Origin: Syntrophomonadaceae bacterium
GTDB taxonomy: Bacteria > Bacillota > Syntrophomonadia > Syntrophomonadales > DTU052
Direction: 5' to 3'
Assembly: GCA_012728655.1 (NCBI GenBank)
Contig: JAAYEQ010000018.1
Location: forward strand, 1 to 60,941
DNA length: 60,941 nt
Within the stretch, counting starts at the first letter, position 1, and every line of letters starts with the position of its first letter. This document shows positions 681 to 7,679 of the stretch, one piece after another. The translations under genes and the position numbers were made by a program. The notes under the pieces are model-generated. The model was given only the letters and a program-made list of their open reading frames with translations, searched no databases and had not been told where the DNA came from.

Positions 681-1481
681 CTGCTGAAGCAATGCAAAGC
701 CAAAAAGGTTATATGCTTGGTGCAAGGCATTGTATTCGTGCTGATTTTCAGCTTATTTGCGCCGATGGTCTCCTTAAAACCACTGACAATCGGAACCCCC
801 AGCGCATTGGCGGCCAACAGGTCAGTTAAGACCATCGCCGCCGGGACCAAGTACGCAACCAGTCTTTACGTGATAAGGAGCGGAGTGTCCGGTCCGGTTG
901 TCATGGTAGTCGGGGGAACACATGGTAATGAGCCTGCAGGATACAAGGCAGCTCACCTCATTAAAGATTACTCGGTAAAAAAAGGAACGCTTCTGGTGAT
1001 ACCTGAAGCCAATCGTATAGCAGTGCAGAATAAGACGCGAACCGCACCGGGTGTCGGTGACCTTAACCGGTCATTTCCCAAGACTTCATCGGACAAGCCC
1101 GATGACCCTCTGGCTCGAGCTATCTGGCAGACGGTCAAGGATTACAGTGTCGACTATCTGATCGACCTTCATGAGGGGTACAAGTACCATCTGCAGACCC
1201 CGTCATCGTGGGGTCAAACCGTTATCTATTACCCCAACAAGGGGACGAAAGCTCTGGCAGATCGAATGGTAAGTGCTATTAACAGCAGCATCTCGACTCC
1301 AAGCCAGAGGTTCAGCACCGTAAAGTATCCTTATAAGGGTGAGCTGTCCCGGAGTACCGGTCAGTTTCTCGGATGTCACAGCTATGTCATTGAATCATGC
1401 CGGTTGGAATCCTTGAACACCAGGATTGGACGTCATACTACCGCCGTTAAAACTGCACTCAAATATTTAAATATGCAATGA
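681..1481 (+). CDS. Secreted M14-like zinc hydrolase (succinylglutamate desuccinylase/aspartoacylase-type), copy 1
   Basis: This is a zinc-dependent amide hydrolase of the succinylglutamate desuccinylase/aspartoacylase branch of the M14 fold. The zinc ligands are visible as GGTHGNEPAG (H81, E84 with the start used here) and the later DLHEGYKYH (H164). The DLNRSFP motif is present, as is a late VIESCR segment that probably carries the catalytic glutamate. The N-terminus is lysine-rich, then hydrophobic, then has an Ala-x-Ala-like end (SALAAN), so export is likely. The start is unusual. A strong GGAGG at 669-673 sits 7 bases before CTG at 681, whereas the first conventional codon (TTG at 717) is 43 bases away. 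The CTG start gives 266 residues, matching the 267-residue paralogue downstream. The substrate is unknown. Confidence 0.75.
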   Translation: MLKQCKAKKVICLVQGIVFVLIFSLFAPMVSLKPLTIGTPSALAANRSVKTIAAGTKYATSLYVIRSGVSGPVVMVVGGTHGNEPAGYKAAHLIKDYSVKKGTLLVIPEANRIAVQNKTRTAPGVGDLNRSFPKTSSDKPDDPLARAIWQTVKDYSVDYLIDLHEGYKYHLQTPSSWGQTVIYYPNKGTKALADRMVSAINSSISTPSQRFSTVKYPYKGELSRSTGQFLGCHSYVIESCRLESLNTRIGRHTTAVKTALKYLNMQ

Positions 1482-1641: not shown

Positions 1642-2445
1642 ATGAGTTTCGGAAGAAGACTAAGGAGATTCAAAGGTTTTACTGTAGCAGCGATAGTTAT
1701 AGCGGTTAGCCTGGTGGCGGCTTCGATACCGTCGTTCCCCGGGTTTACGCCGGCAAATGCAGAAGCACAGGCGGCAACGGTTACCACCGTTACTCTGGCC
1801 AAAAGCACTGCCCGTCAAGACACCCCGTTGTATGTTATCAAGAGCGGAAAACCGGGTCCGGTGGTGATGATCGTGGGAGGCGTCCATGGAAATGAAACTT
1901 CCGGGCCCAAAGCAGCCGATAAAATCAAGAATTTGCGTCCCAAGAAAGGAACCTTGCTGGTTCTTCCTCGGGCCAATATAGTTGCAGTTCAGCAGGGTAC
2001 CCGAACCTCGCCGGGGGTAGGTGATATGAACAGAACCTTCCCGAGAACCAAAAATGGCAAATGCACAAAGAACACTTCGCAGTCGATCTGGAACGCAATC
2101 AAGAGCTATGATGTGGATTACCTGATCGATCTGCATGAGGGCTATAATTACCATAAGATTCAGCCCAGTTCATACGGACAAACCCTCATCTACTACCCTA
2201 TCAGCGGTGCCAAGACTGTTGGACAGGTAATCATAAACGAGTTGAATAAAGGGATAGGCTCGCCCAGCAAGCACTTCACCCTGGTCAAGTATCCCTATGA
2301 AGGGACCCTGGCCAGGGCGGCTGCGCAGCATTTGGGAGTAATAGCCTTTACTATGGAGACCTGCCGCAAGTCGGCAGAATCAATAAGAATCAACAACGGG
2401 GTCAAAGCGACTAAAACCCTGTTAAGCTATCTTGGCATGTTATAG
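1642..2445 (+). CDS. Secreted M14-like zinc hydrolase, copy 2
   Basis: This is a paralogue of the preceding gene with the same architecture. It has a classical signal peptide: an arginine/lysine-rich start, a hydrophobic core at about residues 13-28, and a probable cleavage after PANA at residue 40. The zinc motif GGVHGNETSG supplies H82 and E85, and DLHEGYNYH supplies H165. The MNRTFP motif and a FTMETCRK segment near the catalytic glutamate are also present. An AAGGAAAGGAG ribosome binding site precedes the ATG. It lies about 160 bases after copy 1 and ends 2 bases before the end of the convergent amidoligase operon. The pair looks like a local duplication. Cleavage of a cell-wall or peptide amide bond is a reasonable guess. 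Confidence 0.8.
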   Translation: MSFGRRLRRFKGFTVAAIVIAVSLVAASIPSFPGFTPANAEAQAATVTTVTLAKSTARQDTPLYVIKSGKPGPVVMIVGGVHGNETSGPKAADKIKNLRPKKGTLLVLPRANIVAVQQGTRTSPGVGDMNRTFPRTKNGKCTKNTSQSIWNAIKSYDVDYLIDLHEGYNYHKIQPSSYGQTLIYYPISGAKTVGQVIINELNKGIGSPSKHFTLVKYPYEGTLARAAAQHLGVIAFTMETCRKSAESIRINNGVKATKTLLSYLGML

Positions 2446-2447
2446 CA

Positions 2448-3887
2448 TTATCTGATACGAACATTTACCCGGGTGGATGAACTCTTCTTGGATTTGTTCT
2501 CCGCCCGGTATTTTTTTTTCGGAATAGGAATGCCCCAGGCTTCTCTGATATCCTTGGATTCATCCCATTCTTCCGCATTCCGGCAGAGCTCGTCAATTGA
2601 TTCCAGGTAGGATGCATACTGTTTTGCATCCGGCAGCGCCGTAATCGTTTTCCAGATCTCCGGGTACAGATTGCGCAGATATGATTTGTCCCCGGAATAG
2701 AAAGCTCTTTGGACATCAACACGTGTGAAATAGTTGGTGCTAAGGTCCAGGTAGTTGTCTACAACCAGTTTGGCCAGGCACAATACCCCCTTTGATATCT
2801 CCGGGCTTACCAACCAGCTTGAAATAGTGCGGTATTCGAATCCATGCTCTTTCAGGCGGAAGTCGCTCAAAAGGCCATACTTGGTGCGGCGCATGCTGGA
2901 GGATGCGCTGTTTTCCATTAGAAAAACCGGAATGGCCAGGTAATTGTCCAGGGCTCGCAACAGCTTGCTTGAACAGTTTATGTTGCTGAAGTGGATATGG
3001 CCGCCTATAGGATAATTGCTGGTTGGCTGGCTGCCTGCAACCCATTGGATATTGCTGTACGGCAAAAGTTTTACCCCCTGAAGAATCGTCTTGCGGATAT
3101 TTTCGGCCAATATCAAGGGGGATGTTGAGGGTTCCGGCCGCAGTTCCCCAACCGGCCGCTGCTGGCGGTTGGGGATCCTGATGCTGTCACACCCGACCTT
3201 CCCCTGGCGCGGCAAAAAGCGGGATGCGGGAATCATCTTCCCCGTATCTCGGTTGATTAAGATGAACTCAGGGTCAGCGCCCAGTTTTACCTCTCTTTTT
3301 TCAGCCCGGTAAGGAGGAGCGGTCAGGAATTTGAGCAGGGCTTTTAGTGTTTTGGGAGCCAGGGTTGGAGAGGGATCCACCTCCAAAATAACCGGCTTGC
3401 GCAGCTTGGTAAAGCCGACATGGGCCAGAGCAAAATCAAGGCCCAGGGCCTGAACCGCGGTGCGGGCAGCGTTAATAACGCGTTTGATCTCCTTGTCATC
3501 ATCCTCGGCCTTAATCAGAATCCATTTGCCGTTGCCATCATCCTCACTGGAAGATTTATCACCGTGAGATTTTCTCCAGACTTTAATTGGAATCAGATTC
3601 ATAATAATTACCTTGTATTCCCGGATTATATCCTGAGCGGAAGCAGAGGTATCCAGGCGGTGCAACTGAAATACCTGTCGGGCTGCAGGCGATAACGCGA
3701 GCCGGAGCGCGTTCGGTTCGTTAATTTCGATAATTCTTTCCGTCGGTTTTAAGGGAATGGTGAACTGCTTGTGGGGCGTCGAGCCGATAACCAGTTCGCT
3801 GATTTCGGTGCGACGGTTCTGCTCCAAAAGCATTTTGCTGAGCCTGGCTGCGGTTTCACCGCCGGCATATGTGAACTTTACGGTCAC
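2448..3887 (-). CDS. COOH-NH2 ligase (phage phiEco32 type 2) fused to a partial ATP-grasp-like domain
   Basis: The C-terminal half is an amidoligase of the glutamate-cysteine-ligase-like fold, which joins a carboxyl to an amine using ATP. Signatures are GADPEF (203-208), GELRPEP (about 247-253), GGHIHFSN (about 295-302) and a later EYRTISSWLVSPE. The N-terminal 190 residues end in KPVILEVDPSPTL, resembling the metal-binding end of an ATP-grasp domain, but the nucleotide-binding lysine/glycine loop is not obvious, so this part looks degenerate. It is the last gene of a four-gene operon, and its GTG start overlaps the stop of the upstream ATP-grasp gene by 4 bases (GTGA). Comparative genomics of amidoligases has linked such enzymes with YheC/YheD ATP-grasp proteins. 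The substrate is unknown. Confidence 0.8.
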   Translation of the reverse strand: MTVKFTYAGGETAARLSKMLLEQNRRTEISELVIGSTPHKQFTIPLKPTERIIEINEPNALRLALSPAARQVFQLHRLDTSASAQDIIREYKVIIMNLIPIKVWRKSHGDKSSSEDDGNGKWILIKAEDDDKEIKRVINAARTAVQALGLDFALAHVGFTKLRKPVILEVDPSPTLAPKTLKALLKFLTAPPYRAEKREVKLGADPEFILINRDTGKMIPASRFLPRQGKVGCDSIRIPNRQQRPVGELRPEPSTSPLILAENIRKTILQGVKLLPYSNIQWVAGSQPTSNYPIGGHIHFSNINCSSKLLRALDNYLAIPVFLMENSASSSMRRTKYGLLSDFRLKEHGFEYRTISSWLVSPEISKGVLCLAKLVVDNYLDLSTNYFTRVDVQRAFYSGDKSYLRNLYPEIWKTITALPDAKQYASYLESIDELCRNAEEWDESKDIREAWGIPIPKKKYRAENKSKKSSSTRVNVRIR

Positions 3888-5026
3888 GAGGTTTCGCTTC
3901 CCTTCTGTTTCGATCGTGTCAGATAGGTGGCGTAATCGAGAACCCGGTTTCTGGACAGTATCCTGATATCGGGTTCGTCAAAGCGAAAGGGTTTGGAGTT
4001 GACTTCAATCAGCCATAAGGAGAGATTGGCGTCCAAACCGATGTCCAATGACAGTTCGCCAAAGGCCATGTTGCTGTTCCGGTCAACACAGGTGCCTACG
4101 GCATGTGCCAGTTCAATGATTCGGTCGTATATTACATGCATTCGTATCTCACTGTTCTCAAGGAGTTCACTTAATACATCTTTCAGGGGGACCACCTGTC
4201 CGTAGTTGGGCACATGAGTCAGGAAGGCGTTTTTGGCCGCCAACCTTGCTCCCATCCCGGTTACTTTCCACTCTCCCTGAAGGTCTTTTTGTATAAGGGT
4301 TCTTATATCAAAGATCCTTCCCCGGTACCTGGCCAGGTCAACGGTTTCCTGGACAATATACTCTTTTTGAGGCTGTTTTGACTTAAGCCGCGCGGCTATT
4401 CCAGCAACCCCATTTTCGGTGTGGGCTGCATATCCTTTACCGGTCTTAATGTGGACACGATAACCTGATGGTGTCTTGTCTATGCGCATGATGCCGCGGC
4501 CGACACTGCCGGCACGCGGCTTTAAATATACAGAACCGGCTTTATCGAGCATCTCGGTCAAACCCGCGATACTGAATAACCGGGTTTTCGGAAGGTGGCC
4601 TGTTAATTTCCGGTCTTGGGCCAGCCAGTTATAAACAACCCACTTATCCAAATAACAGGGATTGAAAAACGGAATATTTTCCCGCTCAAGTTGTTCAATA
4701 CACTTTTGAACCTCGGGTCTGTTCTCCGCCTTGCGGTTTGGTATCCGGTTGTAAACCACGTCAAACAGGGGGAACTTGTATAATCGCCATCCATTCCCGG
4801 CTTCCCTGCCCAGAGTCCATCCCCAAACCTGTCTTCGCTTCCAGTCTACACCCCGCGGTTCGAATACGTACACGGTGATCCCGCGTTTACGGCCTTGAAT
4901 GATTAATTCCCGGTAGTTGGAAAGTATCGGCCGGGTCCGCCTGCCGATGGGACAGCTTAACACCCCGATTAAGGGCTTATTGATGAAATAAGGAAATGCT
5001 TTGGCTTCAGGCGGCGAGCTTTTCAT
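3884..5026 (-). CDS. YheC/YheD-family ATP-grasp protein, copy 3 in operon
   Basis: This ATP-grasp protein of 380 residues belongs to the YheC/YheD family found in spore formers. The family presumably forms amide bonds through an acyl-phosphate. The nucleotide-binding segment YLKPRAGSVGRG carries Lys169 and the glycine-rich loop. The metal-binding IEVNSKP lies near residue 345, with the preceding FGELSLDIGLD segment, so the catalytic residues look intact. The N-terminus has the family's IGVLSCPIG strand and a VVYNRIPNR motif. It overlaps the upstream ATP-grasp gene by 4 bases (ATGA) and the downstream amidoligase by 4 bases, so translational coupling is expected. In B. subtilis the related YheD is reported around the forespore. 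A role here in spore-layer chemistry is inference. Confidence 0.85.
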   Translation of the reverse strand: MKSSPPEAKAFPYFINKPLIGVLSCPIGRRTRPILSNYRELIIQGRKRGITVYVFEPRGVDWKRRQVWGWTLGREAGNGWRLYKFPLFDVVYNRIPNRKAENRPEVQKCIEQLERENIPFFNPCYLDKWVVYNWLAQDRKLTGHLPKTRLFSIAGLTEMLDKAGSVYLKPRAGSVGRGIMRIDKTPSGYRVHIKTGKGYAAHTENGVAGIAARLKSKQPQKEYIVQETVDLARYRGRIFDIRTLIQKDLQGEWKVTGMGARLAAKNAFLTHVPNYGQVVPLKDVLSELLENSEIRMHVIYDRIIELAHAVGTCVDRNSNMAFGELSLDIGLDANLSLWLIEVNSKPFRFDEPDIRILSRNRVLDYATYLTRSKQKGSETS

Positions 5027-6276
5027 TTGACACCCTTCCCATTCTGTTTATCACCGGGGCGAACCGGACCGTTTACGGCCAGATAACAGGCAAATCTTAA
5101 AGGTTTGGTAAAGGATAGGGTTATGAGTTTCGGCGAGCCCTTGCCTTCAACCGTACGGCGGGGTTTCGAATTGACCTCGATTATCCAAATGTGCCCGTCT
5201 TTGTCGACACCGAGGTCAACTCCCATTTCGCCGAATACATGCCCGGATGCGTTTTCCAGGGCTTCACACACCTTGATCGAGAGAGCACGTATCTTCTTTT
5301 TTATTTCAGCTATCCTGTCCTTATCGAAGTATTGTTTAAAAACCTCATTTAGAGGATAAGGAGTTCCGCCGCTGGCCAGATTGGAGGTTATATTGCCTTT
5401 ACGTCCCACCCGGGCGTAGACTTTGGTTATGGTCCACATCCCCTTGTCATTCTTCTGCATCAGGGTGCGGATGTCGACCACTCCGCCCTCGAAGGTAATG
5501 AGGTCAATGCCCTGCTGTATGAGATACAGCCGCCGGCCGCCAATCGCCCGAAATTTGCGATAGACATCCTTAATTGACAGGGCATATCGTACCTGGCCGC
5601 CGCGGCTCTTGAGTACAAAGCGCCCCGATTCCCGGCTAATGCGGATGATTCCACGGCCCAGGCTGCCGGTTACCGGTTTCAGGTATAGGTTATGGAATGA
5701 AGCGAGCATGGAGGTTAAGTCCTTGGGTTCTTTCAATACTCTGGCTTTGGGCAAGTGAGGGCGAATCTCGGGAACATCTTTAAGGTAGTCATGGACCACA
5801 TGTTTGTTAAGGTAGCAGGGATTAAAATACCTGCCTTTAGTCAATTTGTTAAGCCTGGTCCGGTCCTGCTGATAACGCCGTTCAGCAACTCGGGTGTAAA
5901 TCTGATCGTATACAACGTCGGGAGGCGGCACCGGACCCTTAACCCAGCGTCCATAGCCGTCTTCTTCCATTACAAAACGGTACCCGGTGAACCTGTTGTT
6001 TCCCCAGTCTATGTCCCAGGGGCGAAAAACATAAACCTCAGCCGGTACCCTTTTTTCCATACGGCTTAAGAAGGACAGTTCCCCCTGAACCCCGGTGGGC
6101 TTGATCCTGCCGCTGTGAAGTTTGTTGGTGGTCAGAATCCCGATTACAGGCTTTTTATCCTGGCTCTTCTTTTTCGGAGATGCGTTGTCGTTGACCGGAA
6201 TGCCGGCGTTTTCTTCGACCGGATTCATTTGTTCGGTCCCGTTTCTTTCGATTTTCGATGTTGTTTTGGTACTCAT
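5023..6276 (-). CDS. YheC/YheD-family ATP-grasp protein, copy 2 in operon
   Basis: This is a 417-residue paralogue of its neighbours. The first 42 residues form a charged, probably disordered extension (KKKSQDKKP) before the IGILTTNK strand. The ATP-binding YLKPVTGSLGRG includes Lys200, and the metal site IEVNSKPRRT is followed by a basic tail. VVYDQIYTRVAERR matches the family's conserved surface motif. The start overlaps the stop of the first ATP-grasp gene by ATGA. Sequence divergence between the three copies suggests three distinct substrates or consecutive steps, not recent duplication. No regulator is encoded next to the operon. Confidence 0.85.
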   Translation of the reverse strand: MSTKTTSKIERNGTEQMNPVEENAGIPVNDNASPKKKSQDKKPVIGILTTNKLHSGRIKPTGVQGELSFLSRMEKRVPAEVYVFRPWDIDWGNNRFTGYRFVMEEDGYGRWVKGPVPPPDVVYDQIYTRVAERRYQQDRTRLNKLTKGRYFNPCYLNKHVVHDYLKDVPEIRPHLPKARVLKEPKDLTSMLASFHNLYLKPVTGSLGRGIIRISRESGRFVLKSRGGQVRYALSIKDVYRKFRAIGGRRLYLIQQGIDLITFEGGVVDIRTLMQKNDKGMWTITKVYARVGRKGNITSNLASGGTPYPLNEVFKQYFDKDRIAEIKKKIRALSIKVCEALENASGHVFGEMGVDLGVDKDGHIWIIEVNSKPRRTVEGKGSPKLITLSFTKPLRFACYLAVNGPVRPGDKQNGKGVK

Positions 6277-7601
6277 GCCTGTTCACCCTCTCGGAATCCT
6301 GCCAGGTAACGGGCATAAAGCATGGGACGCATTATGCTCAAACGTTCGTCCTTATTCATTTCCATTTGACTGAAAGCTCTGCGCCCCGGTTTGGAATTGG
6401 CCTCAAGAAACCATACGCGGCCAGTTGTGTCAATGATAAAATCCAGACCGATTTCCCCGATTGGAGTTATATGTTTTTCGAGAGTTTCAGCTATCTTCAA
6501 GGCCAGTTTCTCGATGTTGGATATAATTTCGGTGATCTCACTGTCTTTAAATCTGCATGCTGCCAGCACCGATTCCAATCGTTCCGGTTTTCCGCCGGTG
6601 TGAAGGTTGGTGGTCACCCGCCCTTTTCCTCCCACTCTGGCAGCCAGTCCGGTAATGTTCCATTTATTGGTGTGGTCTTTTTGCACCATGGCTCTTACGT
6701 CAAAATGTCCGGCGCTGGAAGGACAGGTAATGGCCTGTTGAACCAGCATGAGCTTGGATTTGGCAGCCGACCTGGTTTTTCGGTATACCCGGTTGATGTC
6801 GGTGTATTTGGATTCCTGAATATCGGCGGTGCCCTGACACATATAGGTGCCGTTGCTCTTCCTGACCCGGGTTATCCCTTTTCCCTGGAATCCGCCCGCC
6901 GGCTTGACATACACCTGACGATGTTTCTGAAGCATCTCCTTGAGGACATTTACCGCAGTAAGAACCTGGGTTTCCGGGATATGCGCTCTTATCTCCCCGT
7001 CCAGGCTTAACAGGCGGTGGATTTTCCACTTGCTGCCCATAGGGGCATTGAAGGACTTAACCCCTGACTTCTGCATGCGCTTCAGGATCGGGTATGACCA
7101 GGGATCGCCTTCCTTGCGGAAATAACGGTTATACACGATGTCTGGAAAAGGAAACCACCTGCGCACCCATTTGTTTGTGATCCCATTCGGCAGATAATAC
7201 CCGTGAACCAACTTGCGGTCCCAATCGATGCTCTGGGGGGTGAATACTATGCCGATACAGGTGAGTTTCTTAAGCTGCGCCAGGAGTTTGCGGTAAAAAC
7301 TATCCTGACCGAAGACACCGTTTTGGTATTGTTTGGCCAGGATGCCTATCAGGGGACCTACTTTCAGTTTGTTGTCTACCCTGGTTACTCCCAGCTTGAT
7401 GCCGGCGGGCAGGCTGAGAGCCGCTGACAATCGTTCCGATAAAGATACGGTTTCATCGTCCGGTTCAATATCTCTTTTTTTTGCAATCTTGGCACGAGCA
7501 CTTCTGTTCCCGATTGTAACCGTAACTGATTGACCGGGCGTTACTCCCAGCCTGGTGCATGTGTTTCCGGAAATGTATATAATATTATGATTTTCTGGCA
7601 T
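6273..7601 (-). CDS. YheD-like ATP-grasp protein with N-terminal double-psi-like domain, first gene of operon
   Basis: This is the full-length version of the family (442 residues). The N-terminal 80 residues (YISGNTCTRLGVTPGQSVTV and following) form the small beta-barrel-like domain typical of YheD. The ATP-grasp core follows with YVKPAGGFQGKGITRV and LEANSKPGRR. The start chosen is the ATG preceded by AAGAGGTAG, not an upstream in-frame ATG at 7655 that lacks a ribosome binding site. It heads the operon of three ATP-grasp genes and one amidoligase and is divergent from the DUF503 gene. The operon promoter should lie in the short space before 7680 but was not pinned down. The catalytic residues are intact and the substrate is unknown. 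Confidence 0.85.
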   Translation of the reverse strand: MPENHNIIYISGNTCTRLGVTPGQSVTVTIGNRSARAKIAKKRDIEPDDETVSLSERLSAALSLPAGIKLGVTRVDNKLKVGPLIGILAKQYQNGVFGQDSFYRKLLAQLKKLTCIGIVFTPQSIDWDRKLVHGYYLPNGITNKWVRRWFPFPDIVYNRYFRKEGDPWSYPILKRMQKSGVKSFNAPMGSKWKIHRLLSLDGEIRAHIPETQVLTAVNVLKEMLQKHRQVYVKPAGGFQGKGITRVRKSNGTYMCQGTADIQESKYTDINRVYRKTRSAAKSKLMLVQQAITCPSSAGHFDVRAMVQKDHTNKWNITGLAARVGGKGRVTTNLHTGGKPERLESVLAACRFKDSEITEIISNIEKLALKIAETLEKHITPIGEIGLDFIIDTTGRVWFLEANSKPGRRAFSQMEMNKDERLSIMRPMLYARYLAGFREGEQA

Positions 7602-7679
7602 TAAGCTACCTCTTTTCCGCTTTTCCAGACTGTGGTTTATTATATGAGTAGACATGTTGTCTAGGTTCGTTTAAGGGAG

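Follow-up and report, generated by a model that had tools for sequence, protein, structure and literature searches.

The yheC and yheD genes of Bacillus subtilis are under sigma-E and SpoIIID control (PMC517825), and the YheD protein encases the forespore and self-associates (PMC7911427). Linked amide ligases acting in succession are also known, and their products are often peptide metabolites or polymers for storage (operonic linkage cited in PMC4431377). In this work a stretch of 60,941 bases from a Syntrophomonadaceae bacterium (contig JAAYEQ010000018.1), hereafter called the window, was analysed. It contains a single operon on the minus strand (7601-2448) encoding three ATP-grasp ligases of the YheC/YheD type (PF14398; A1, A2 and A3) and one phiEco32-type COOH-NH2 ligase (PF14395; CNL). 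Linked ATP-grasp and COOH-NH2 ligase operons were reportedly predicted by Iyer, Abhiman, Burroughs and Aravind in 2009, in the study that is reportedly the source of both families; their Pfam description is said to give them a part in modifying proteins of the spore wall or capsule. The authors of the Pfam families are likewise said to have predicted a spore-surface role for them. What is new relative to the known families is the linkage to the coat protein CotE and the promoter context, which is of mother-cell type. We propose, with a probability of roughly 0.45, that the operon works late in the mother cell, where its enzymes would attach amino acids, probably glutamate, to the acidic tails of coat proteins.

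Organization of the operon

The operon and its leader comprise the following features:

7638..7667, minus strand: putative mother-cell-type (sigma-K-like) promoter leading the operon, AACC-N17-CATATAATA, found as a pattern match
7606..7613, minus strand: ribosome-binding site AGAGGTAG, read directly from the bases, preceding the ATG at 7601
6273..7601, minus strand: A1, YheC/D ATP-grasp ligase with an N-terminal extension of about 80 residues (PF14398, E 9.6e-75, 251.6 bits)
5023..6276, minus strand: A2, YheC/D ATP-grasp ligase of a separate paralogue group (PF14398, E 2e-76, 257.1 bits)
3884..5026, minus strand: A3, YheC/D ATP-grasp ligase, the usual neighbour of CNL according to the tree and gene order (PF14398, E 1.2e-69, 234.8 bits)
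2448..3887, minus strand: CNL, phiEco32-type COOH-NH2 ligase with a GTG start and a GCS-like domain at residues 202-453 (PF14395, E 7.2e-95, 317.5 bits)

A1, A2 and A3 exceeded the PF14398 gathering score (26.8 bits) and CNL that of PF14395, with positions 1-254 of the 254 in the profile covered. A preliminary description of the window had announced a four-gene ATP-grasp/amidoligase operon with 4-base overlaps, and both the open reading frames and the Pfam assignments (PF14398 three times, PF14395 once) confirmed it, the overlaps being ATGA between A1 and A2, ATGA between A2 and A3 and GTGA between A3 and CNL. The translational coupling that it had also claimed holds less firmly: the overlaps are real, but coupling is only suggested by them and they are partly conserved. 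In the two nearest named relatives, both metagenome-assembled genomes of Syntrophothermus (a single-sequence contig search found only these two near relatives), A2 and A3 overlap, while gaps of 2-3 nt and 17 nt separate A1 from A2 and A3 from CNL, respectively. Overlaps of 4 bases are frequent in bacterial operons. An alternative in-frame ATG for A1 is found at position 7655 in the open reading frame listing; it falls within the conserved promoter (7638-7667), which makes 7601 the more probable start.

The genome to which the window belongs (2.3 Mb, 79 contigs) encodes SpoIVA (E 8.1e-118) and the source organism is therefore very probably an endospore former.

Linkage to CotE across Bacillota

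An even sample of the phylum (299 genomes) contained 26 CNL genomes outside Syntrophomonadales, one weak match having been excluded, and 262 CNL-negative genomes. Outside Syntrophomonadales, many of these operons are immediately preceded by a gene that Pfam identifies as encoding CotE, the outer-coat morphogenetic protein. CotE was above the cut-off in 23 of those 26 CNL genomes and in 13 of the 262 negative ones (Fisher p 9e-22), and all 23 copies lay on the same contig as CNL, at most 6.6 kb from it. Since related genomes are present in the sample this p-value overstates independence; nonetheless, the pattern spans ten families. The three CNL genomes lacking CotE were G223, whose operon is severed by a contig end, and G111 and G149, both from a single family. 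Where the genome is of the G083 type, CotE and CNL are paired near mutS, apart from the YheCD cluster. Two families have, after the operon, a GNAT gene and a coat gene that is CotS-like but scored below the curated cut-off. SpoIVA was found in 36 of the 37 CNL genomes and in 214 of the 262 negative ones (p 0.015), which is weak evidence because spore formers dominate the sample.

Chance does not account for an order of genes that is retained in so many families, and genome comparison argues strongly for a spore link. The tie to spores drawn in the preliminary description is borne out by the CotE neighbours, the SpoIVA co-occurrence and the promoter described below, and is much stronger than first claimed; the neighbourhood analysis of PF14395 and PF14398 that it had suggested gave this conserved, CotE-linked operon. 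In the literature searched, no paper connecting these two families to CotE was found.

The C-terminal tails of the neighbouring CotE copies were also compared. In 18 of 27 copies the last 30 residues were 37-63% acidic, the maximum among 274 background proteins being 30%. These tails vary in sequence and their composition is conserved. Tandem duplicates of CotE were seen in seven loci (L047, L053, L073, L077, L080, L093 and L094), where the first copy is short and its tail not strongly acidic, while the second carries an insert and an acidic tail. In locus L075 (G187:C58) two CNL genes lie on either side of a single CotE gene and share its strand; a two-domain AstE/AspA-like gene is close by.

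The promoter

The pattern [AC]ACC-N15..18-CATAnnAT[AG] was formulated after inspecting the leaders of coat operons, so that shuffled sequences and neighbouring leaders are the meaningful controls. It was present ahead of 17 of 66 leading genes of coat operons, compared with 3 of 325 other leaders from these contigs; shuffled sequences gave an expectation of about 0.1. When both strands of the window were searched, the sole match was the one at 7638-7667, directly upstream of A1, and this promoter and its flanks are conserved in three related genomes. A scan of the whole genome with the CACC variant gave 7 matches against 5 in the reversed control. The motif alone is consequently not diagnostic, and the argument rests on its conservation across genomes.

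The layout, with a -35 element containing ACC, a spacer near 16 and a -10 element CATA, resembles that of sigma-K promoters (PMC517825). A textbook sigma-E promoter was found in none of the 66 coat-operon leaders. Two of the seven genomic sites, of the form CACC-N15..17-CATAnnATR, precede yunB (L122:1551-2201, plus strand) and cwlD (L120:1761-2483, plus strand), which in B. subtilis are sigma-E genes; for this reason the promoter is called mother-cell-type and sigma-K-like rather than strictly sigma-K.

The sigK gene of the same genome (L116:3446-3829, minus strand, contig C78) encodes the N-terminal half only (SigK model 4-120, E 6e-52) and breaks off after ...AARCIENE. A large serine recombinase gene (L116:1901-3415, plus strand) lies directly beside it, and an IS605-type OrfB/TnpB gene (PF01385, PF07282; L116:148-1137, plus strand) is near the recombinase end of the interruption. 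By its gene content, sigK appears to be interrupted by a skin-like element of the kind known from B. subtilis and C. difficile, although no C-terminal half was found in this genome.

Catalytic residues and fold of the ligases

The preliminary description had considered the three YheC/YheD ligases divergent and catalytically intact, and both points held: their pairwise identity is only about 30% and the ATP-grasp residues K-P, D-x-R and E-x-N-xx-P are present in all of them. In a tree of 111 homologues, A1, A2 and A3 each belonged to a different group, and other families have the same groups in corresponding roles, the A3 group usually adjoining CNL; some deep nodes were poorly supported. On this basis the three ligases appear to be old paralogues kept separately, side by side. 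CNL retains the residues that are invariant in 43 homologues (DPEF, E248/R250, H297/H299, R333/R334 and E351/R353).

Given that B. subtilis YheD surrounds the forespore and self-associates (PMC7911427), the proteins could be ligase relatives that serve mostly as structural parts of the coat, with catalysis secondary or lost. We consider this unlikely, as the catalytic residues are conserved in at least 90% of the 111 ATP-grasp homologues and the active-site-type residues of CNL in at least 95% of the 43.

The AlphaFold2 model of A1 (pLDDT 75.7) was closest in fold to ArgX with LysW (Z 23.0), RimK (22.9) and RimK-RpsF (22.4), followed closely by glutathione synthetase; Ddl reached a Z of about 20. 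The best NCBIfam relatives were the glutamate ligases MptN and RimK, all far below the cut-off; that of the RimK family is 143.4 bits, and A1 and A2 scored 32.6 and 23.9 bits, the fold being similar and the family different. A weak TTL Pfam match was also present in A1-A3. Because the fold neighbours of A1 extend protein C-termini and the neighbouring CotE copies bear acidic tails, we infer that the ligases would modify a protein tail, probably with glutamate.

The ligases 7mgv and 7dro, from systems making ribosomally synthesized and post-translationally modified peptides, were also among the top Foldseek matches of A1, as would suit a graspetide-type system in which ATP-grasp ligases cyclise a short precursor peptide. 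Such a system is the least probable of the explanations considered here: the genes of the window overlap or abut and the flanking gaps are shorter than 80 bases and hold the promoter, which leaves no space for a precursor gene within the cluster. In addition, four ligases including a GCS-type enzyme are atypical for the graspetide layout.

The N-terminal region of about 80 residues of A1 showed a weak resemblance to the CDC48 N-domain barrel (7dg9, E 0.05). Residues 1-200 of CNL (window 3288-3887) are present in the bacterial versions from coat operons; in nearly all viral relatives the match begins only at about residue 195. Residues 131-175 resemble an ATP-grasp C-terminal strand motif (hhalign E 0.0027, with a probability of only 11%), a hint rather than a claim that this region is perhaps a decayed ATP-grasp domain. 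An AlphaFold2 model of CNL built from five sequences (pLDDT 44.6) was set aside.

Hydrolases and neighbourhood in Syntrophomonadales

Two convergent genes adjoin the operon:

1642..2445, plus strand: M14b, predicted exported AstE/AspA/M14-like zinc amide hydrolase, convergent with CNL (PF24827, E 2.4e-19, 70.1 bits; signal-like N-terminus; HGxE and DxHEG)
717..1481, plus strand: M14a, second predicted exported AstE/AspA/M14-like hydrolase (PF24827, E 1.2e-14, 54.8 bits; PF17033, E 3.9e-13; HGxE and DxHEG)

These genes (717-2445) were absent from the preliminary description and are part of the conserved neighbourhood. In all 13 further loci of Syntrophomonadales that were mapped around CNL, A3-CNL is followed by at least one convergent hydrolase gene of this type; YchF, and in most cases DUF503, are found close to this block. 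In the larger sister family A1-A2 are relocated a few genes away, upstream of HtrA, with A3-CNL still paired. Hydrolases of the AstE/AspA type, mostly with signal-like N-termini and the zinc motif HGxE...DxHEG, adjoin the ligases in the order of the window and in five other loci, and they may be active during germination or during growth.

Since these exported AstE/AspA/M99-like enzymes resemble wall-modifying peptidases and their genes lack a mother-cell promoter, the operon could be thought to modify the surface or capsule of vegetative cells, with no role in spores. The linkage of the ligases to CotE and their mother-cell-type promoter make this very unlikely.

In three loci the ligases have as neighbours giant exported proteins of 780-1219 aa, AstE/AspA-like and with catalytic-type domains in repeat (L084:7465-11124, L050:2265-4850 and L041:10322-12664, all on the minus strand), some of the repeats being without an exact HGxE. 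In five Syntrophomonadaceae-like loci (L039, L040, L041, L043 and L046) a pair of TrkA/TrkH-like potassium transporter genes, identified by reading the sequence, lies between YchF and A3-CNL.

Proposed function

According to the proposed tail modification, A1-A3 and CNL would be expressed by the mother cell late in sporulation as a spore-coat module. They would act in sequence, ATP activating a carboxylate that is then joined to an amine, and amino acids, most likely glutamate, would be added to a coat protein at its C-terminal tail, which is acidic and probably disordered, much as RimK modifies ribosomal protein S6, LysX/ArgX modify LysW and the tubulin glutamylases modify tubulin. CotE would be the probable target where present, and a different coat protein in Syntrophomonadales, which lack it. 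The neighbouring exported hydrolases would shorten these additions, take them off altogether or recover the residues at germination.

Several observations weigh against this proposal. The gap in Z between RimK/LysX and glutathione synthetase or Ddl is small, so the fold leaves the substrate unfixed; substrate and product alike are proposals. The acidic tail is absent from some CotE copies, and the CotE tail of B. subtilis is acidic too; this species, used as a control, has YheC/D and no CNL (PF14395). The coat promoter was found in none of 25 hydrolase genes. Finally, CotE was undetectable in the genome of the window and in Syntrophomonadales with either Pfam or a clostridial CotE profile. It cannot therefore be the sole target, and in this order the ligases would act on another protein or yield a free product.

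The main rival is indeed a free non-ribosomal oligopeptide or poly-amino acid, placed in the coat or cross-linking it and degraded by the hydrolases at germination, with CotE as a scaffold for the enzymes and not their substrate. It would agree with four ligases in succession, given the usual products of linked ligases (PMC4431377), and with the persistence of the operon without CotE in Syntrophomonadales, G111 and G149. The operon, however, has no export or polymerase gene and the fold of A1 is nearest to ligases of protein tails, for which reasons we regard a free product as less probable than the modification of a tail. The stepwise synthesis of a peptide-like or side-chain-modified product, as first suggested, is supported insofar as successive, non-redundant amide-bond ligases of three old paralogue groups are present; a peptide-like product is just one of two readings, and modification of a protein tail is in better agreement with the acidic tails of CotE and with the nearest folds.

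A broader and doubtful extension of the tail modification is that tubulin glutamylation has an equivalent in bacteria that form endospores. ATP-grasp and GCS-type writers controlled by sigma-K would act on acidic coat tails (those of CotE where present), with exported AstE/AspA-type erasers in some lineages, and would thereby adjust how the coat assembles or the spore germinates. YheC/YheD have for a long time been associated with the coat without an assigned function; the operons in which their relatives occur with CotE, amide ligases of another class and a promoter of mother-cell type now give a directly testable idea of their substrate. If the proposal is true, coat assembly includes the modification of tails with amino acids, which to our knowledge has not been described in spores.

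Comparison with known systems

The locus of the window appears, from its gene content, to be a CotE-less, hydrolase-linked variant of the coat module: it has no adjacent CotE, its promoter is of mother-cell type by sequence match and its host encodes SpoIVA. B. subtilis YheC and YheD share with the ligases of the window the PF14398 family, the tandem genes, mother-cell sporulation control and, for YheD, a location around the spore. However, no PF14395 ligase is found there, whereas here three YheCD genes, CNL and adjacent exported hydrolases form one locus. The operons predicted in 2009 are said to have both families together, as this one does.

RimK, which polyglutamylates S6, and LysX/ArgX, acting on the LysW tail, are the nearest folds to A1 (Z 21-23) and add amino acids to a protein C-terminus; identity to them is about 14-20%, YheCD are a separate Pfam family and A1 has an extra N-terminal domain. 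Tubulin polyglutamylases (TTLL) and M14 deglutamylases (CCP) offer a functional analogy, an ATP-grasp ligase and an M14-type hydrolase working on acidic tails, but they are eukaryotic, the AstE/AspA-type enzymes belong to another branch and no substrate is shared. Finally, the COOH-NH2 ligases of phiEco32-like phages have the catalytic domain in common with CNL; nearly all of them match this part only, whereas the bacterial versions carry the N-terminal region of 200 residues.

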